Source: Candidatus Nomurabacteria bacterium | GTDB taxonomy: Bacteria > Patescibacteriota > Saccharimonadia > Saccharimonadales > Saccharimonadaceae | NCBI GenBank assembly: GCA_031266275.1 | Contig: JAISBI010000017.1 | Span: 1-33,473, forward strand | DNA: 33,473 nt | Reading direction: 5' to 3' | Part shown: piece by piece, positions 6,426-33,473 of the stretch | How the letters are laid out: every line of letters begins with the position of its first letter | Numbering within the stretch: position 1 is the stretch's first letter | Made by a program: the position numbers and the translations under genes | Notes under the pieces: model-generated | Databases searched by the model: none | What the model saw: only the letters and a program-made list of their open reading frames with translations | Told to the model about the DNA's origin: nothing

Positions 6426-7118
6426 ATGCGCGGGCCCGATTCAAGCGACAGATTATATGTGTTAAAAGCGGTTATTTTAATCTCTTGCTTCGTATTGAGT
6501 GGATTGGCGCTCGGAGCGGATCATAAAGCGCACAGCGGTGCCGTTCCAGAGGAAGAATATCATAAAACAGTCCAAAAAGTCGAAGAAGATGAGGGCGGCG
6601 AACCGGAGCCAGCGCCCGAGCCGGAAGCGGTGCCGGCCGAACTGGTCGCGCCCGTCATTCAACGCGCCGCCGCGCCGCCGGTAGCTCAGGCGCTACACAA
6701 CCATCTAGAGATTTCGGCTATCGGTCTCAATGCCAACGTGTCGCCAGTCGCGATTAATGGCAAAGGCGAAATCGACGTGCCGGCGGCTGGCGTCGGGCTG
6801 TGGAACGGTGGCGCTCAGCCGGGAGGTCTGGGCAATGTGTTTCTGGACGGGCATGTTTACGGCGTCTTTCGCAACCTGCACGGACTTGGCGCGGGCCAGA
6901 CCATTCAGCTGACGTGGAACGAGCGTAATTATAATTATCGCGTGGTGTCGAACAGCACTTATTCGCTGGACGAATTGTTGGCCAATGGCGGCGCTTTGTG
7001 GTCGAATATTTTGTATAATGCGCCAAGCGGCAAGGGTTTGACGATTATGACGTGCGCCGGTTCGCCGATGGGCGCGACTTATTCGCACCGCACAGTTGTC
7101 AAAGCAGTGGAAATATAA
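6426..7118 (+). CDS. Sortase (class E/F-like transpeptidase)
   Basis: Membrane-anchored cysteine transpeptidase that links surface proteins to the envelope. Residues about 11-30 form a hydrophobic anchor, then comes an acidic/Pro/Ala-rich linker (EPEPAPEPEAVPAE), then the sortase barrel. The catalytic triad is visible: His in FLDGHVYGVF, Cys in LTIMTCAGSPMG and Arg in SHRTVV. The compact domain of about 130 residues and the GLWNGGAQPG region resemble class F enzymes. Length 230 aa is typical. The start ATG at 6426 lies 10 bp after ybaB with a poor ribosome-binding site, so it probably depends on coupling to ybaB. No LPxTG-type substrate was seen in the window, but the truncated FISUMP protein could carry one beyond the edge. 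Confidence 0.85.
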   Translation: MRGPDSSDRLYVLKAVILISCFVLSGLALGADHKAHSGAVPEEEYHKTVQKVEEDEGGEPEPAPEPEAVPAELVAPVIQRAAAPPVAQALHNHLEISAIGLNANVSPVAINGKGEIDVPAAGVGLWNGGAQPGGLGNVFLDGHVYGVFRNLHGLGAGQTIQLTWNERNYNYRVVSNSTYSLDELLANGGALWSNILYNAPSGKGLTIMTCAGSPMGATYSHRTVVKAVEI

Positions 7119-7126
7119 GGAGGAGT

Positions 7127-7540
7127 ATGGAGAATGAAAACCTAGAAAAAGCAACAGTCAACCACGCCGAGCGAAAAGTCGATATGGGCGGGGCGGCGGC
7201 TAAAAAAGCAGTTTTGGTGGACGATGAAACGGTGACTAAGTTGCGGCGCTATGAAATTCCTGATGACAAGAAAGTGCCATACGAAGAAATTGCGAATACC
7301 TTGAAACATATTCGCAAAGACATCAACGACATGCCGGAAGATATCAAAGATATTTTTGTCAAAAACGGTTTGGGTGTGATTGAGGACGGCAAGATTATTT
7401 ATACTGACGCAGGCGAGCAAAAATTAGTGCAATACATGTTCGACGATAAAAATGATGAATTAAGCTTGGCAGGATTTTTGCAAGACGCCGGCGTGATAAG
7501 GATTAGCGATAACAATTATGTTACCGAGAGCATTGACTAA
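7127..7540 (+). CDS. Unknown acidic protein between sortase and recR
   Basis: A 137-aa soluble, acidic protein that I do not recognise. The start at 7127 is chosen because AAGGAGGAG stands just before it; a longer in-frame reading from 7052 would overlap the sortase gene. The N-terminus is Ala/Lys-rich and looks disordered. The C-terminal two thirds look alpha-helical with a short winged-helix-like pattern (KDIFVKNGLGVIEDGKIIYT, then AGFLQDAGVIRISD). No cysteines or membrane segments. It overlaps recR by 23 bp, so the two are translated together and it may function with RecR or YbaB, but that is only context. Confidence 0.75.
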   Translation: MENENLEKATVNHAERKVDMGGAAAKKAVLVDDETVTKLRRYEIPDDKKVPYEEIANTLKHIRKDINDMPEDIKDIFVKNGLGVIEDGKIIYTDAGEQKLVQYMFDDKNDELSLAGFLQDAGVIRISDNNYVTESID

Positions 7541-8126
7541 TCTCATCGAAAGCTTCGAGCTTTTGCCCGGCGTCGGCGCACGCAGTGCCGAGCGCTATGC
7601 TTACTATGTTTTGAAAAATTCGCCGGCTGACGCCGCGAAATTGGCGCGCAGTTTGGAAGAAATCCACACTGGCGTGAAACTGTGTCCAGTGACATTCGCA
7701 TTCATCGATTCGAACGAGTCGGTTTCGTCGCTCTACGCCGATGAAGATCGTAATAAAAAATTAGTCGCGGTGGTCGAAGACCCATTCGACGTCATCGCGC
7801 TAGAAAAAACTGGACATTTCAAGGGCACATATCATGTTCTAGGCGGCGCGATTTCGCCCATTGACGGCGTCAGTCCGGAGCAGCTGCACATCCCAGAATT
7901 GATTAAACGGCTCAAAAACGACGCGGTGGAAGAAGTGGTCTTAGCGACCAACGCCAGCGTCGAGGGCGAGTCAACCGCGCTATACATCCAAAAGCAATTA
8001 GAGGGCGCGAAACTGGACGACATCAAAATCACGCGACTGGCGCGCGGCCTGCCCATTGGCGTGGATTTGGAATACGCCGACCAAATAACTTTGTCACACG
8101 CTTTGCAGGGCCGGCAGAGATTGTAG
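7518..8126 (+). CDS. recR: Recombination protein RecR with a degenerate zinc finger
   Basis: RecR works with RecO (and RecF) to load RecA on SSB-coated gaps. Present: N-terminal helix-hairpin-helix (LLPGVGARSAERYAYYVL), Toprim domain beginning VVEDPFDVIALE with YHVLGGAISPIDG, and the C-terminal TRLARGLPIGVDLEYADQIT motif. Length 202 aa is standard. The region that normally holds a C4 zinc finger (residues about 50-82) keeps only one cysteine (KLCPVTFAF) and substitutes other residues for the rest, so metal binding is unlikely. This parallels the zinc-less DnaX in the same window. The ATG lies inside the previous gene (23-bp overlap). Confidence 0.93.
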   Translation: MLPRALTNLIESFELLPGVGARSAERYAYYVLKNSPADAAKLARSLEEIHTGVKLCPVTFAFIDSNESVSSLYADEDRNKKLVAVVEDPFDVIALEKTGHFKGTYHVLGGAISPIDGVSPEQLHIPELIKRLKNDAVEEVVLATNASVEGESTALYIQKQLEGAKLDDIKITRLARGLPIGVDLEYADQITLSHALQGRQRL

Positions 8127-8129
8127 ATT

Positions 8130-8157
8130 TTGCTAACTCGCTTCGTCGTGATACAAT
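8130..8157 (+). promoter_or_regulatory. Promoter giving a leaderless pheS (and DGR RT) transcript
   Basis: TTGCTA (8130-8135), 16 bp, TACAAT (8152-8157), then 7 nt to the pheS ATG at 8165, which has no ribosome-binding site. The start of transcription therefore falls at the start codon. The same transcript should read into the overlapping reverse transcriptase gene. Confidence 0.6.
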
Positions 8158-8164
8158 TATAGTT

Positions 8165-9166
8165 ATGGAAATTAAGAAGACTCGAGAATTATTGTTGACA
8201 CGGGCTCGGGAACTAGAAGCGCCGCGCGATATTTTGAAAGCGCCGGAGTTGAAGAAACTTTATCAAGTTTTGTCTGGGCTGCCAGAGGCGGAGCGGCCAG
8301 AATTTGGCCGGAAAATCAATGCTTTACGGGGGGAGTTAGAGAAACTTGTCCAAGTTTTAGAGTCGCAAGTTGAAGAAGCGGCGGTTGAGCCGATTGACGT
8401 GACCGCGCCGATGGGCGTGAACCAACCGAAGCCGACGCTGATGACTTCTGATAATGGCTCGCGGCATCCGTTGATGACGGAGTTGGAAAACGTAGTGCGG
8501 ATTTTTAACCTAATGGGCTTCGACGCGCTGGAATCGCGCCAGCTGGACGATGATTATCATATGTTTACAGCGCTGAATTTTCCGCCCAATCATCCGGCGC
8601 GCGACATGTACGATGCTTTCCATACGGAAGAGGGCTTCATCCCGCCCGGACACACTTCGACCATGCAAAATCGCATTTTGAAAGCTGGCAAGCAGAAATT
8701 AGAATCTGGCGGTCAAATTGCCACGATTAGCTATGGCCGAGTTTTTCGCAACGAAGACCAAGACGCCACGCACGAGCACACGTTTTATCAATGCGAAGGC
8801 GTATTCGTGTCAAAAAACGCCAATTTTGCCCAGTTGACTGGAGTGTTGCTGGAGTTTTTGCAAACTTATTACGACCAAGAATTGAAATACAAAATCCAAC
8901 CCGGCTATTTCCCATTCACCGAACCGAGCATTGAATTCGCCATCGAAAAGCCAGCTTCCATCAACGGCAAAAAAGGCGAGTGGTTGGAGCTAGTGCCAGG
9001 CGGCATGATCCACCCGAACGTCTTGCGCGAAGCTGGAATCGACCCGACCAAATATCGCGGTTTCGCGTGGGGTTTGGGCATTGAGCGCCTTGTGATGCTG
9101 AAATATGGCATCGACGATATTCGGCATTTTGAATCTGGTAGATTGCGGTTCCTGAAGGAATTTTGA
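8165..9166 (+). CDS. pheS: Phenylalanine--tRNA ligase alpha subunit
   Basis: Catalytic subunit that activates phenylalanine and charges tRNA-Phe as part of an (alpha-beta)2 enzyme. The N-terminal about 85 residues form the tRNA-binding coiled coil. The class II core follows: motif 1 around HPLMTELENVVRIFNLMGFD, motif 2 RVFRNEDQDATHEHTFYQCE, and motif 3 GFAWGLGIERLVMLKYGIDD. Length 333 aa is normal and the C-terminus (RLRFLKEF) looks complete. The expected partner pheT does not follow directly: a retroelement starts inside the stop codon and pheT begins 3.8 kb downstream in two pieces. Confidence 0.96.
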   Translation: MEIKKTRELLLTRARELEAPRDILKAPELKKLYQVLSGLPEAERPEFGRKINALRGELEKLVQVLESQVEEAAVEPIDVTAPMGVNQPKPTLMTSDNGSRHPLMTELENVVRIFNLMGFDALESRQLDDDYHMFTALNFPPNHPARDMYDAFHTEEGFIPPGHTSTMQNRILKAGKQKLESGGQIATISYGRVFRNEDQDATHEHTFYQCEGVFVSKNANFAQLTGVLLEFLQTYYDQELKYKIQPGYFPFTEPSIEFAIEKPASINGKKGEWLELVPGGMIHPNVLREAGIDPTKYRGFAWGLGIERLVMLKYGIDDIRHFESGRLRFLKEF

Positions 9167-10122
9167 ATTTAACTTATCAGAGGATTCATGCGGCTTGGCG
9201 GGCCTTTCGAAGTGGCAAACAACTTAGCCCAGCGATTGACGATTTTAGTTATCATTTGACGGCGAATTTGCTGGATTTGACACACCAATTGAACATTGGG
9301 ACTTATCGGCATTCGGCTTATCGTCAAATTAGTGTGCAAGAGAAAAAGCGCCGCGATATTAGTGTGGCGGCAGTGCGAGATCGGGTGGTTCATCGACTGA
9401 TTTATGACGAATTGGTGCGGATTTTCGACGATTCGTTTGACTATGATGTTTGGTCGTGTCGAATTGATAAAGGGTTGCACAAATGCCTCGATCGCACCAA
9501 GAACTTGTTGGGGCGATATCAACGAGCGTATGTTTGGCGGATGGATATCGCCAAATTCTACGATCACGTCGATCACGCAGTGCTGATGAAATGTTCGCGT
9601 CGCCGACTGGATGACCAGCAGCTTTTATGGTTGTGTGAAGAGATTATTAACAGTTTCAGTTTGGCCGATGACCGCCCGCGCGGCATTCCGATTGGTAATT
9701 TGACCAGCCAAGTTTTCTCTAATATTTATCTGAACGAGTTCGATCGTTGGGCCAGGCATCAATCCGGAGCTTTGGCCTATGTGCGCTATGGCGATGATTG
9801 TGTGATTTTTGCGCCTACTCGCCAGGTGGCTCGAGAATTGAGACGTGACGCGACTCTGTTTTTGCACGAAAATCTGCGCTTGGACGTCAATCCGAAAAAC
9901 GACGTCATCGTCCGGTCTGGCGACGGCCTCGATTTTCTTGGTCACCACATAACGTCGGCCGAAATAATCGTCGACCGCCACACTACCGTGGCGGCGCTGA
10001 GCAGCGTTAATTATCGAAACTTAGCTAGCTATAAATCGCTAAAGTTCGATAATCGTATAAAAAGGCGATTTGACCACCAAGTCCTAGACGAAATAACAGA
10101 GGTGATAGGCCCAAAGTATTGA
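9163..10122 (+). CDS. DGR-type reverse transcriptase
   Basis: Reverse transcriptase of a diversity-generating retroelement: it copies the template repeat into mutagenised cDNA that replaces the variable repeat of the target gene. Seen: first catalytic Asp in WRMDIAKFYDHVDH (D128), motif 4 GIPIGNLTSQVFSNIYLNEF (residues 174-193), whose I-G-N-x-x-S-Q signature marks DGR enzymes instead of the QG of group II introns and retrons, and the catalytic box YVRYGDD (206-212). Tyr-Gly-Asp-Asp is less usual than YVDD/YMDD. At 319 aa with no maturase or endonuclease domain it fits the family. The likely start is TTG at 9163, which overlaps the pheS stop as TTGA, with GAAGGA upstream. Expression is thus coupled to an essential synthetase gene. 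Confidence 0.92.
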   Translation: MNLTYQRIHAAWRAFRSGKQLSPAIDDFSYHLTANLLDLTHQLNIGTYRHSAYRQISVQEKKRRDISVAAVRDRVVHRLIYDELVRIFDDSFDYDVWSCRIDKGLHKCLDRTKNLLGRYQRAYVWRMDIAKFYDHVDHAVLMKCSRRRLDDQQLLWLCEEIINSFSLADDRPRGIPIGNLTSQVFSNIYLNEFDRWARHQSGALAYVRYGDDCVIFAPTRQVARELRRDATLFLHENLRLDVNPKNDVIVRSGDGLDFLGHHITSAEIIVDRHTTVAALSSVNYRNLASYKSLKFDNRIKRRFDHQVLDEITEVIGPKY

Positions 10123-10187: not shown

Positions 10188-10201
10188 AATTTGGTAAATT
10201 G

Positions 10202-11125
10202 ATGAGTTTGTCTCGTCTTTTTGGCCTGCTTAGAGGGTTCGTATCTGTTTTTGGTGTCAACAAGGTGCTGAATAGGTTGGTAGCCCGAAATGGGCTGGGA
10301 AGGGACGAAGAGATGAAGAAGTTAACAGGAGTTAAAGTCACAGAATGTTCGAATACAAAATCGGATGAATTCCATTTTTCGACCAATGAAAAGATGGCAG
10401 TGAAAACCGGCCAGCTTCCCAATCGAGGAGTGAAAAAAATCGTTCAGGAATTGGTCGACCATACATATTTTATCATTGAAAACAGCGATAAAAATGTGGT
10501 TTTGCCGAGCGACCTGGAAGAGCAGATTCGGTCAAAGGTCGAAGACCAAAATGCCAAAGGCTATAAAGTTCAGTATTTCATGAAGTTTGGCGAGAATATC
10601 ATTTCAACGGCACGCATGATCGAGTTGGCGAACCCTGACTATGTCTATGATCCGCTGTGGACGCCTGGCACTGAGACGGAGAGTTATACTGTCAAGGAAT
10701 TGAACGGCTCGGAAACTGATATTTCGGTGATGGGAATGTTCCTCAATACTGAGGATACCGACTATGATCCGACTCTGTTTTTACTGGACCACCCGTTTGA
10801 CGATAAATATCCGAACGGAAAAATCAGTCAGGTTGACGCTGCCAAGGAGTTTTTGGCGAAATCGATCGATGGACTGGAAATCAAGCAAACCGATCATCGC
10901 GACGTTTTGTCCAGATATATCATGGACAAAAATAACGGGTTGTCACCCAACGATGTGATCCTTGCTCAAGGATGGACGCGAATCCCCCTTGGGCGAAGAT
11001 CTGTTGTTGGCGGCTCGTGCGTTGGTTGCGTGAACTCGGGCGGCGGTCGGCGTGGGCTGGGCGGGTCGGTCGGGCGCGCGGACGACGGCGTTGGCGTCGG
11101 CTTCTCGGCGGGGCTGGCAGATTGA
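10202..11125 (+). CDS. DGR target (variable) protein
   Basis: A 307-aa protein (from ATG 10202; an alternative ATG 10313 would give 270 aa) whose last about 39 codons are the DGR variable repeat. The N-terminal part is unlike anything I recognise: residues about 1-25 are mildly hydrophobic and basic, then a mixed alpha/beta region (VKKIVQELVDHTYFIIENSD, VQYFMKFGENIISTARMI) and acidic segments. No clear signal peptide. The C-terminus reads VGCVNSGGGRRGLGGSVGRA and ends in DDGVGVGFSAGL, the position and spacing expected for the ligand-binding face of a C-type-lectin-like fold. The template version would carry Asn at seven positions of this stretch. Variable residues are now dominated by Gly because 16 of 21 adenine changes are A-to-G. 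The displayed function and ligand are unknown. Confidence 0.8.
   Translation: MSLSRLFGLLRGFVSVFGVNKVLNRLVARNGLGRDEEMKKLTGVKVTECSNTKSDEFHFSTNEKMAVKTGQLPNRGVKKIVQELVDHTYFIIENSDKNVVLPSDLEEQIRSKVEDQNAKGYKVQYFMKFGENIISTARMIELANPDYVYDPLWTPGTETESYTVKELNGSETDISVMGMFLNTEDTDYDPTLFLLDHPFDDKYPNGKISQVDAAKEFLAKSIDGLEIKQTDHRDVLSRYIMDKNNGLSPNDVILAQGWTRIPLGRRSVVGGSCVGCVNSGGGRRGLGGSVGRADDGVGVGFSAGLAD
11000..11116 (+). repeat. DGR variable repeat (VR)
   Basis: Aligns without gaps to 11337-11453 (offset 337). The template copy has 25 adenines here, of which 21 differ in VR (16 to G, 4 to T, 1 to C). Of 92 non-adenine positions only 3 differ, all T-to-G. The 3' end shares 22 identical bases beginning CGTTGGCG and ending CTCGGC, which fits the initiation-of-mutagenic-homing segment. 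VR lies at the very end of the target ORF, 7 bp before the stop codon. Confidence 0.93.
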
Positions 11126-11313: not shown

Positions 11314-11336
11314 ACTCTGGACGATGCAAGATACGA

Positions 11337-11453
11337 ACTGTTGATGGCGACTCGTACGTTGGTTGCGTGAACTCGAACGACGGTCAGCTTAGGCTGAACA
11401 GGTCGAACGGTAACGCGAACGACAACGTTGGCGTCGGCTTCTCGGCTAGGCAG
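11337..11453 (+). repeat. DGR template repeat (TR)
   Basis: Non-coding twin of the variable repeat. Read in the VR frame it contains seven AAC codons and several AGG, GAC and CAG codons, so adenine mutagenesis changes mostly ligand-contact positions without creating stops. It would read LNRSNGNANDNVGVGFSA where VR encodes Gly-rich sequence. Similarity to VR fades upstream of about 11337 and downstream of about 11453. Confidence 0.92.
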
Positions 11454-30104: not shown

Positions 30105-31790
30105 ATGCAGGCGATTGTCGACCTCGTCGAAAAAGCCGTCAAAAAACTCGGGTGGAAAGCCGCTGCTGTCGAAGTGTCGCGCACAGAGGCGCAGTTTGGC
30201 GATTATTCGACTAATGTGGCGATGCTACTAGCGAGCTCGGTCGGCGAAAATCCGCGCGCGATTGCTGAAAAATTGGCGGCAGAGTTATCGGGTAATGAAT
30301 TTTTCAACAGTGTCGAAGTGGCTGGGGCGGGATTTATCAATTTTCGCTTGTCGGATGCGGCTTTGGCGCGCGAAGTGAAAAGTATCAACGCGGAGCCGGA
30401 CCGATACGGCGCCTCGAAATTATACGCTGGCAAAGTCGTGGTCAGCGAGTTTTCCGACCCCAATCCATTCAAAGTTTTGCACGTCGGTCACCTCTATACC
30501 AGCGTCATCGGTGATGCGATTTCGAATATCGTCGCGGCGGCTGGCGGACAAGTTCACCGCGTCAATTTCGGCGGCGACGTCGGGTTGCACGTGGCAAAGA
30601 CGATGTGGGCGATTATTCAAGATTTAGGCGGCGAGCTGCCAGAGAAATTAGCCGACATTCCGGTTGAGGAGCGTTCGGAATGGATGGGGCGCTGCTATGT
30701 CACTGGTACGCGGACCTACGAAGACGATGCGGTGGCCAAAGAGACCATTACTGAGAATAATAGAAAAATTTACAACCTGCACCGCGAGGACGATCATGAT
30801 TCGCCATTCGCCCAGATTTATTGGACCTGTCGGGGGTGGAGTTATGAATATTTCGACGCTTTCTATGCCCGCATCGGTGTGAAATTCGAGAAGTATTATC
30901 CAGAGAGCGAGATAGCGGAGGTAGGGCTGAAGACCGTTTTGGCGCAGCGCGACAAAGGCGTTTATGAAGACAGCGACGGCGCGGTGATTTTCAATGGCGA
31001 AAAGTATGGCCTGCATACGCGGGTCTTCATCAACAGCAATGGAATTCCGATTTATGAGGCCAAAGACGTCGGTCTGGCCATCAAAAAATGGGACGATTAT
31101 CACTTCGACAAGTCCATCATTTTGACTGACGCCGAGCAGACGGATTACATGAAAGTCGTCATGAAAAGCATGGAACAATACATGCCGGAGTCGGTGGCGC
31201 GGACGCTGCATTTGACGCACGGCACGGTGAAATTGCCGGGCGCCGAGAAAATGAGCAGTCGCAAAGGCAATTTTCTGCGGGCGGTCGACGTCATCGACAT
31301 GGTGGCGGGCGAATATAAAAAAGCGCAGGGTCGGACCAGCGATGAATTAGTCTTGGGCGCCATCAAATACGCTTTTTTGAAAAATCGGCTGGGGCCGAAT
31401 TTGAGCTTCGATCCGGAAACGTCCGTCAGCATGCATGGTAACAGCGGTCCGTATCTACAATATGCGGCGGTTCGAGCGAATGCCATCCTGCAAAAAATTG
31501 GCGAGTTTGAAGCGGTCGAAATTAACGACCTCGACGAACAAGAACGCAGTTTGGTCGTCAAATTGACGGAATTTTCCAGTGTGGTTGACGGTGCTACGAC
31601 GGAATTAGCCCCACAAGTGCTCTGCACTTATCTCTATGAACTTGCCCAAGTTTTCAATCGTTTCTATGAAAATTCGCCGGTCGCGAATAGTCCGCGCAGT
31701 GCGATTCGCGCGCAGTTGGTGCAGGCTTACGGCTATATTTTGCGACGCGGTTTGAACCTGCTCGGCATCACAGTGCCAAAGAAAATGTAA
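30105..31790 (+). CDS. argS: Arginine--tRNA ligase
   Basis: Class I synthetase of 561 aa. N-terminal Add-1-like domain (residues 1-100), HIGH-type motif as HVGH in KVLHVGHLYTSVIGDAI, catalytic core with INSNGIPIYEAKDVGLAIKK, KMSKS-equivalent EKMSSRKGNFLRAVDV, and the C-terminal DALR anticodon-binding domain ending GLNLLGITVPKKM. All key blocks are present. It shares the nusA transcript and starts 2 bp after its stop. The -35 of the following RNA element begins 4 bp after the argS stop. Confidence 0.95.
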   Translation: MQAIVDLVEKAVKKLGWKAAAVEVSRTEAQFGDYSTNVAMLLASSVGENPRAIAEKLAAELSGNEFFNSVEVAGAGFINFRLSDAALAREVKSINAEPDRYGASKLYAGKVVVSEFSDPNPFKVLHVGHLYTSVIGDAISNIVAAAGGQVHRVNFGGDVGLHVAKTMWAIIQDLGGELPEKLADIPVEERSEWMGRCYVTGTRTYEDDAVAKETITENNRKIYNLHREDDHDSPFAQIYWTCRGWSYEYFDAFYARIGVKFEKYYPESEIAEVGLKTVLAQRDKGVYEDSDGAVIFNGEKYGLHTRVFINSNGIPIYEAKDVGLAIKKWDDYHFDKSIILTDAEQTDYMKVVMKSMEQYMPESVARTLHLTHGTVKLPGAEKMSSRKGNFLRAVDVIDMVAGEYKKAQGRTSDELVLGAIKYAFLKNRLGPNLSFDPETSVSMHGNSGPYLQYAAVRANAILQKIGEFEAVEINDLDEQERSLVVKLTEFSSVVDGATTELAPQVLCTYLYELAQVFNRFYENSPVANSPRSAIRAQLVQAYGYILRRGLNLLGITVPKKM

Positions 31791-31794
31791 ATGC

Positions 31795-31823
31795 TTGCGC
31801 GAGCGAAATTTGTGTGCTAACAT
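31795..31823 (+). promoter_or_regulatory. Probable promoter of the structured RNA before the second RT
   Basis: TTGCGC (31795-31800), 17 bp, TAACAT (31818-31823), with TGTGC before the -10 as in the other window promoters. Transcription would begin at about 31830, exactly where the long inverted repeat at 31829-31839 begins. Confidence 0.5.
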
Positions 31824-31828
31824 AGCGA

Positions 31829-32327
31829 TGGTGGGCAGGTACATAAATTGATCTAGGGCCAAATGAGTATCAATAACAAGCGGTACGCGAGTAGAATTTG
31901 TCGTGGCATGTCGATTAAGTCGGTGCCATTTGCGCGTAGTAAAATAAATCAGAGGCGTGCCATTAAACTTGTTATGCTCTCGGCGACGAGAGGCGGCTTG
32001 ATGCGCTGAGGCCAAAAAAGGCGCAGAGAGCCATTATACGTTACCTATTTCGTTCTTTCCCTCGATAGCGGCAATTTCCCCCACTACTGTGTCGGGGATT
32101 TAAACGGACGTTCGAGAGGAAAAGCGGGCGCGGGCGCGACGCTACGTCAAACGTAGAAAAATCGTTGATATTCCAACGGTTTCGACCCTGTCATTATCTG
32201 TCAGAGTCACGGACGGCGCAAAGGCGCCGACGCGCTACGGCGGAGAAAAAGGAACGTATGTTCGAAAACGATTACGGGGGCGCGATCGTTTATCCTGCCC
32301 ATCACCACAGCGCCCCCAATCGTTTTT
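31829..32327 (+). ncRNA. Long structured RNA preceding a retron-like RT
   Basis: About 500 nt without a convincing gene but dense in hairpins: TTGAT/ATCAA (31848/31869), ATAACAAG/CTTGTTAT (31873/31968), GGTACGC/GCGTGCC (31882/31955), GTGGCA/TGCCAT (31903/31924), CTCTCG-GCGA-CGAGAG with a GNRA loop (31977-31992), CTTTCCCTCGA with TCGAGAGGAAAAG (32055/32112), CTACGT/ACGTAG (32142/32151), AAATCGTTG/CAACGGTTT (32159/32174) and CGGCGC-AAAG-GCGCCG (32214-32229). The 5' end TGGTGGGCAGG (31829-31839) pairs with CCTGCCCATCA (32294-32304), like the a1/a2 repeats of retron RNAs, although retron RNAs are usually shorter (about 150-250 nt). It could be a template for the downstream RT. Confidence 0.65.
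32265..32327 (+). terminator. Terminator-like hairpin immediately before the second RT
   Basis: AAAACGATT (32265-32273) and GGGGGCGC (32276-32283) pair with GCGCCCCC (32310-32317) and AATCGTTTT (32318-32326), 17 bp with a 2-nt bulge, ending in TTTTT. The 26-nt loop holds the segment complementary to the RNA 5' end. The RT start codon follows 3 nt after the T-run, so this hairpin probably limits or gates RT expression. Confidence 0.75.
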
Positions 32328-32330
32328 GTT

Positions 32331-33341
32331 ATGGGATATATTAATTATAAAGAGAAGAAAAAACTAGAATACAATCCAGACGGTTCTTTTCGTAAAGAGC
32401 GCGTACTGCACGTGCCAAACGAAAAGGCGCGCGAAGCTGGGGCGCATATCGTCAGAATGTTGGTCGAGCTCAGGGACAAAGATATGAGCGACTTGTTTTC
32501 CCGCTCGGCTGTTGGCGGTATCAAGGGGCGGGGCTTGCGTGACAATGTCATGCCGCACCGCAAGAACAAACACTTCGTGATGTATGATTTGAAAGATGCT
32601 TATCCGAACACACGAATTGGCCAGTTGGCCAGTGTGATTTTGCGCCCTGACTTGATTTATTCGGAGCATGAGTTGGTCGCTAATCGTGAAGAGTTGTCCG
32701 ACAACACTTATCGCATGTTGCACGATTGTATGTTGGTCGATGAAGAGACAAAGGAAATACATGGGCTGCCGCAGGGCGGTACGGCTTCGCCGTTTTTGCT
32801 CAATTTGTCATGCATTCCGCTGGACGAGAAGCTGGATAAGTATTGCCGCGAACAAAACCTCACCTATACCAGATTTATCGATGATTTCACTATTTCATCG
32901 CTGGAGCCTATCGGTAAAAAGCGTCAGCGAGAGATAAAAGAAATAATTACCAGCCGGCCCAATACGATTATTAATGACAAAAAGACGCGCAAACACAGCC
33001 TCGACAACAAGCCGGTGATAATCACTGGCGTATCGCTGTATCCAGACGGCCGCATAGAGATGAGTCCGCCGCTGGCGCGGAAGATTGAGAGTTTCTATGA
33101 CTACGTGCTGGAAGCGGCTTCCAGCGGCGACATCGACCAGCTGGATGAGTTGTGGGAAGATGAAAATAGCATGAGGGGCAAAATAAACGGTTATCACAGC
33201 ATGATTAAATCATTTGGTTATACTAATACGCCGCTGCATCGCCGGTTGGAACGGAAGTATCGTGCTGCTCTCGGGAGATGGGAAGATTCTTTTGAGGTTG
33301 CGTATAAAATGAGGCGGGCGGAAACGAAGAATTTAAAATAA
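32331..33341 (+). CDS. Second reverse transcriptase, retron-like or unknown-group
   Basis: A 336-aa reverse transcriptase distinct from the DGR enzyme. Seen: RVLHVPNEKAREAGAHIVRM (RT0/1-like), N-V-M-P-H at 72-76 (compare retron NAxxH), first catalytic Asp in FVMYDLKDAYPNTR (D86), motif 4 GLPQGGTASPFLLNLSCIPL (145-164) with the QG of retron and group II enzymes, catalytic YTRFIDDFTISS (FIDD 182-185), and KPVIITGVSLYPDGRIEM (ITG at 231-233; retron VTG). The thumb block SMRGKINGYHSMIKSFG is like other retron RTs. No maturase, endonuclease or integrase domain. No ribosome-binding site precedes the ATG. The long structured RNA just upstream favours a retron or DRT-type defence or recombination system. 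Confidence 0.85.
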   Translation: MGYINYKEKKKLEYNPDGSFRKERVLHVPNEKAREAGAHIVRMLVELRDKDMSDLFSRSAVGGIKGRGLRDNVMPHRKNKHFVMYDLKDAYPNTRIGQLASVILRPDLIYSEHELVANREELSDNTYRMLHDCMLVDEETKEIHGLPQGGTASPFLLNLSCIPLDEKLDKYCREQNLTYTRFIDDFTISSLEPIGKKRQREIKEIITSRPNTIINDKKTRKHSLDNKPVIITGVSLYPDGRIEMSPPLARKIESFYDYVLEAASSGDIDQLDELWEDENSMRGKINGYHSMIKSFGYTNTPLHRRLERKYRAALGRWEDSFEVAYKMRRAETKNLK

Positions 33342-33382
33342 AATAAAAAAGTCGCTCAAAACTCTGCCCCACCCACACTTCC

Positions 33383-33472
33383 TCACCCCGCCCCCATAGA
33401 CCCTAACCTCACCAACTCGTACATCACTCGTACCCAAGACAAAGCTTTCTTAGGATTAGCTAGACAGTAGCG
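33383..33472 (-). CDS. Possible 3' end of a minus-strand gene at the window edge
   Basis: On the minus strand an open frame enters from the right edge and stops at 33385-33383. Its 29 visible residues, containing NPKKALSWVRVMYELVRLGS and ending MGAG, look coding but are too few to classify. The region between 33342 and 33382 is otherwise AT-rich with no clear signal. It is convergent with the second RT and could be its effector, or unrelated. Confidence 0.3.
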   Translation of the reverse strand, partial: RYCLANPKKALSWVRVMYELVRLGSMGAG

Positions 33473-33473
33473 T

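Follow-up and report, generated by a model that had tools for sequence, protein, structure and literature searches.

The window, that is, the whole stretch of 33,473 nt analysed here, is an entire contig (C41) of a 792-kb genome in 42 contigs, assigned to Candidatus Nomurabacteria bacterium (Saccharimonadaceae in the GTDB lineage). Towards its right end, argS (30105-31790) is followed by an intergenic region of 540 nt (31791-32330), in which neither a credible ORF nor an Rfam match (at the gathering or at a relaxed threshold) was found, and then by an ORF encoding a reverse transcriptase (RT). The contig stops 132 nt after this RT, inside a repeat common to the end of another contig of the genome, which hides the gene downstream. 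The features of the locus are as follows:

31795-31823, forward strand: putative sigma-70-type promoter, TTGCGC (31795-31800), 17 nt, TAACAT (31818-31823)
31829-32304, forward strand: structured, msr-msd-like non-coding RNA of 476 nt, from arm a1 to arm a2 (folding z-score -4.3; same layout in relatives)
31829-31839, forward strand: arm a1 of the end-to-end stem, TGGTGGGCAGG, inner end CAGG (31836-31839)
31840-32034, forward strand: presumed msr with several hairpins, from the predicted fold only, one hairpin lying at 31977-31992 (CTCTCGGCGACGAGAG)
32035-32293, forward strand: presumed msd, a 3' branched domain and putative cDNA template, from the predicted fold only, with outer pairing at about 32036-32042/32253-32259
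32294-32304, forward strand: arm a2 of the end-to-end stem, CCTGCCCATCA, 26 nt before the RT start
32265-32327, forward strand: terminator-like hairpin, arms 32265-32283 and 32310-32326, running into TTTTT (fold of 31825-32330)
32331-33341, forward strand: retron-type reverse transcriptase, 336 aa, with motif X NVMPH, catalytic FIDD and motif Y ITG
33355-33473, no strand: contig-end repeat, a 119-nt suffix that recurs without mismatch at the end of contig C24, next to a transposase-like ORF

This RT is indeed the second of the window, as a preliminary description of the DNA had stated. The first (9163-10122), found directly after pheS, belongs to a diversity-generating retroelement with a variable repeat (10998-11114) in ORF 10199-11125 and a template repeat at 11335-11451, template adenines being the site of 20 of the 23 mismatches. 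A further RT of the same genome lies in what resembles a second diversity-generating retroelement (6515-8388 of locus L026, contig C20), with a four-helix-like ORF of 115 aa upstream and an Asn/Ser-rich ORF that ends like a variable protein.

Retron RTs are recognised by NAXXH as their region X, located between motifs 2 and 3, and by a region Y starting with VTG. The window RT, which matches the Pfam family RVT_1 (E 4e-13), displays NVMPH (A to V) and ITG at these places, so that the resemblance to retron RTs first noticed in its NxxxH and ITG blocks is real; the V to I change in region Y is known from Vc81 (PMC6868368). Its closest solved relatives point the same way. In a profile search of solved structures, the RT of Ec83 came first (5e-33), followed by those of Ec86 and Ec78 (Eco7), the best non-retron matches being group II introns (4e-14 and weaker), DRT2 (4e-11), DRT1 (1e-7) and DRT3a (3e-6). 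A fold search with the predicted RT model (mean pLDDT 80) returned retron RTs at all of ranks 1 to 12, with modest TM-scores (0.46-0.56). Nearly all types of PADLOC retron models matched the window RT, similarly weakly and often nearly tied, the best scores being 90 bits for RT_II-A and 84 bits for RT_VI, versus 235-411 bits for typed RTs searched with the same library (L039 VI, L020 VII-A2, L076 III-A, L105 XI). With a maximum of 90 bits, it reaches the level of no numbered retron type in the Mestre classification as implemented in PADLOC. Judged from its sequence and modelled fold, the window RT is thus a retron RT that fits no modelled retron type.

The region upstream had been described as about 500 nt of dense structure with at least ten hairpins, which the folding analysis supports: the predicted fold of 31827-32306 contains more than ten hairpins and reaches -178.7 kcal/mol, versus -150.8 +/- 6.5 for shuffled sequences, none of which (0/100) folded as well. 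The 11-bp inverted repeat reported at its ends exists exactly where it had been placed, and includes one G-U pair. Among inverted repeats allowed at any position in the region it does not reach significance (matched in 12/60 shuffles). Its significance is positional, appearing when one arm must fall within 60 nt downstream of the -10 box and the other within 60 nt upstream of the ATG (14/3000 and 7/2000 shuffles); it is the comparison with the RNAs of related loci, given below, that makes this stem convincing. In retron RNAs, the ends are complementary over about 8-30 nt (a1/a2), and the priming guanosine lies in a TAGC, CAGC, CAGA or GAGC motif at the inner end of a1. Here this inner end reads CAGG instead of the usual TAGC, and G 31838 or G 31839 would be the candidate priming nucleotide. 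The msr of retrons normally carries one to three short hairpins and the msd forms a single long hairpin, whereas the presumed msd of the window is branched in the predicted fold.

The signals that would delimit this RNA, in the window as in its relatives, are pattern matches. The putative promoter had been proposed at the exact 5' end of the RNA: its place holds, 5 nt before the first arm and comparable to the position seen in relatives, but the element itself matches the consensus at only 7 of 12 positions and a promoter scan at default threshold reported none for the window RNA, so that it is weak by itself. At the other end, a2 falls inside the 26-nt loop of the terminator-like hairpin, and both helices together would form an H-type pseudoknot. 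DNA searches against phages, 60 relatives and the genome itself (the only one of its genus) detected no homologue or second copy of the window RNA, whose own structure therefore remains a prediction.

A single-sequence search with the RT against genome and viral contigs gave no match, and its relatives were found with a profile built from the first seven RTs. They come from Saccharibacteria, Parcubacteria, Harrisonbacteria, Berkelbacteria and others, and share 24-36% identity. The preliminary description had suggested placing the RT in a tree: among 60 RTs, it groups with 15 other Patescibacteria RTs in one clade (support 100/99) that lies apart from the RTs assigned to types by PADLOC, its nearest neighbours being other Patescibacteria RTs and Myxococcota fusions. 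Unrelated long-branch RTs that a quick tree had placed inside the clade were left out of the final tree. The asparagine of motif X is kept in 13 of the 15 aligned members, five of which have the exact NAXXH, and region Y of the other members reads VTG, ITG, ING or IAG. We thus regard the clade as a retron branch which appears, so far, to be restricted to Patescibacteria and is caught by no PADLOC retron model; the absence of an Rfam match likewise agrees with the initial impression that the RNA fits no known family. In the literature covered, no paper dealt with retrons of Patescibacteria, CPR or Saccharibacteria, and an earlier mention elsewhere is possible, for instance in the main classification papers or the experimental census. 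Among relatives of the clade, the RT domain of a Myxococcales protein (489-4316 of L049, cut by the contig end) is preceded by a protein kinase domain of the Ser/Thr type (PF00069, E 5e-39), and a protein from Myxococcota (L054) has an N-terminal extension of ~650 aa with no Pfam match.

Nearly every member of the clade has a stem-bounded segment beside its RT, closed by 9-17 bp and spanning 206-478 nt; L018, which begins at a contig edge, was left unjudged, and L032 offers a weak candidate only, downstream of the RT. For 12 RNA genes (L022, L028, L030, two each in L033 and L034, L036, L037, L040, L122 and L127) at most one of 60 shuffles produced as good an end stem, as was also the case for L123 from the sister group. 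The stem alone is not significant in the window, L016, L017, L021, L023 and L032, that of L017 passing the positional test (28/3000). Promoter-like sites precede a1 and terminator-like hairpins follow a2 in several relatives; a2 lies inside the loop of such a hairpin in L017 also, and adjoins or overlaps one in L033 and L034. A priming-like motif occurs at the inner end of a1 or directly behind it in L122 (TAGC), L022 (CAGC), L040 (GAGC), L028 and the first RNA of L033 (both CAGA), and is absent there from L037 and the second RNA of L033. Rfam searches of these loci returned tRNAs only, and the RNAs of L021 and L022 gave no usable alignment with each other. tRNA genes found near the retron loci L028, L033, L034 and L037 may mark insertion sites. 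The window RNA was said to be about twice the usual retron size, which is correct when its 476 nt are compared with the 241-nt primary transcript of Mx162 (PMC6868368), but given the range normal in the clade its length is no oddity of this locus.

The arrangement of these segments indicates what kind of element they are. Retron cassettes normally hold the msr-msd 5' of the RT in one polycistronic unit. The window RNA is likewise 5' of the RT, with a terminator-like hairpin in between; in L036 the RNA lies clearly downstream (3') of the RT and comes with promoter-like and terminator-like sites of its own, and in two related Parcubacteria (L033, 3285-3875; L034, 3360-3890) two tandem paralogous RNA genes precede one RT. 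This downstream position and this duplication indicate that the RNA constitutes a separate gene. They do not fit a cis-acting leader that would regulate an RT serving some other role, such as repair or a domesticated function, a reading that could draw on the RT start codon following directly after the terminator-like hairpin in the Saccharibacteria members and on the location of the loci among housekeeping genes. Rapid sequence change with conserved pairing, for its part, fits a template or partner RNA, and we consider such a leader very improbable.

That the pairing is conserved can be seen in the four related RNAs, two paralogue pairs, of L033 and L034, the relatives in which base-pair covariation, proposed earlier as a check, was examined; they covary strongly, an outcome that favours the earlier proposal. 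Their structure of 43 pairs consists of the end stem, three hairpins and a further stem that encloses these. In this structure, 97% of the cells are paired, and 19 of the 43 pairs have changed on both sides; none of 500 shuffles equalled the RNAs in covariation score, in the percentage paired or in changes on both sides. When the partners are slid along the alignment, pairing falls to 35-51%, a control that leans in favour of the structure as this was derived from the same alignment. Four sequences are few, but numerous changes affect both sides of a pair. A covariance model built on the L033/L034 core matched its own sequences and none in other members, from which we conclude that these RNAs change sequence fast.

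No effector gene shared among the clade's loci was found linked to the RT. The next gene downstream is convergent in 10 of the 16 loci scored (L017, L018, L028, L030, L032, L033, L034, L040, L122 and L128, the split locus L127/L128 being included in the 16); in L028 and L030, these opposite-strand neighbours are tRNAs and a ribosomal-protein gene. The remaining loci have unrelated genes on the same strand (ABC-F twice, an ABC transporter, a sigma-factor-like gene and a photolyase-related protein). ABC-F occurs near the RT in four Saccharibacteria loci; a partner role was considered for it but rejected, its position being up- or downstream and its distance variable. In L016 (5216-7135, Saccharibacteria UBA6175), the RT and a complete YaaA (PF03883, E 5e-63) form an in-frame fusion, with the photolyase-related gene directly 3' of it; we know of no case of YaaA as a retron partner. 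The window locus might be a retron of the ordinary kind, with its effector encoded past the contig end, where the repeat hides the downstream gene, and most retrons do have a linked effector. Yet the other 15 members have no linked gene in common, the next gene is so often convergent, and one RT is fused to YaaA while four others are followed by unrelated same-strand genes, which makes this explanation rather unlikely in our view.

The missing effector gene would be explained at once if the locus were a DRT-like system, consisting of RT and non-coding RNA alone, in which the RT copies part of the RNA (in a rolling or repeated manner, or primed by a protein) with no 2'-5' branch, the effector being the cDNA or what is made from it. 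The large RNA, nearer to DRT size, and the possible 3' pseudoknot would be compatible with it. But the RT matches retron RTs far better than those of DRT2, DRT1 and DRT3a, and an RNA with complementary ends and an inner-end guanosine bears the retron signature; we therefore hold a DRT-like system to be improbable, if somewhat less so than the leader. Coding by concatemers as in DRT2 was looked for and rejected, for the window RNA contains no unusually long open frame, 137/200 linear and 160/200 circularised shuffles having one as long.

Membership of the retrons is thus supported by the RT motifs, the structural relatives and the RNA ends. The suggestion that the locus is an undescribed RT-RNA system finds no support in the sense of a new kind of system, since retron motifs, nearest solved relatives that are all retron RTs, and complementary ends with a candidate priming G place it among the retrons. 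Counting against a retron are CAGG in place of TAGC, NVMPH in place of NAXXH, and the moderate significance of the window stem. Further points on this side are the negative homologue searches for the window RNA, the stems of L016, L021, L023 and L032 that lack significance by themselves, the L033/L034 covariance model with no match in other members, the promoters and terminators being pattern matches, and the loss of the downstream region at the contig end. On balance, we propose that the locus is a retron of two components that belongs to a Patescibacteria-specific clade, has its RNA transcribed separately and makes branched msDNA; we would give this a probability of roughly 0.7.

In such a retron, the promoter just before 31829 would drive an RNA of ~500 nt ending at the terminator-like hairpin before the RT, itself translated from its own or a read-through mRNA. 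The complementary a1 and a2 would close the RNA, and the RT would prime cDNA with the 2'-OH of a guanosine in the inner CAGG of a1 (31836-31839), synthesis starting opposite about 32293, on the template just 5' of a2, and running leftwards. The product would be a branched RNA-DNA molecule (msDNA) staying bound to the RT, and this complex may, by analogy with the retrons studied, sense phage infection. With no linked effector, the response would be executed by the RT-msDNA complex itself or by a host protein encoded elsewhere. More tentatively, and with the odds somewhat against it, one may imagine a retron lineage, confined so far to Patescibacteria, that has dispensed with a dedicated effector protein, and in which the active part is the RNA itself, large, transcribed separately and in some loci duplicated, or its long msDNA, possibly with two different msDNAs per RT.

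The retron literature covered describes a cassette of RNA, RT and linked toxic effector, from ordinary bacteria. Here, a clade from the bacteria with the most reduced genomes combines RT and RNA with no linked effector that could be recognised, so that whether RT and msDNA suffice to give a phenotype can be tested directly. A single RT acting on RNA genes that stand apart from it or in tandem would offer a natural example of an RNA provided in trans, and long templates have practical appeal for DNA production in cells.

Several known systems can be compared with the window element. Retrons of types II-A and VI share with it the RT core, motifs X and Y and an RNA with complementary ends beside the RT; they differ in their type-defining partners, as no HTH, NDT or other such partner accompanies the window element (its own downstream gene being hidden), and its RNA appears as a separate gene of up to twice the size. 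The RNA of Retron-Mxa1 (Mx162) has the same complementary ends enclosing msr hairpins and msd, while that of the window measures 476 nt from a1 to a2, is heavily branched in the predicted fold and is separated from the RT by a terminator-like hairpin. Retron-Eco1, Eco4 and Eco7 (Ec86, Ec83, Ec78) provide the best sequence and fold matches of the RT, but their solved complexes contain dedicated effectors (NDT, PtuA/PtuB, HNH), none of which was found here. DRT2 and DRT9 likewise combine an RT with an adjoining structured non-coding RNA, but the RT match is much weaker, and the window has retron motifs and an end-to-end stem with no concatenated open frame. Retrons have been described as a single polycistronic cassette, with paired complementary RNA ends and with reverse transcription of the msd primed, via a 2'-5' bond, by an a1 guanosine at the arm's inner end (PMC6868368); some have no clear effector association (PMC8867640), and lone retron RTs exist (PMC12548924). 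Compared with these published systems, what appears to be new from the loci analysed is a Patescibacteria-only clade, in which the RNA seems to be a separate, sometimes duplicated or downstream gene, with sizes of up to 478 nt.
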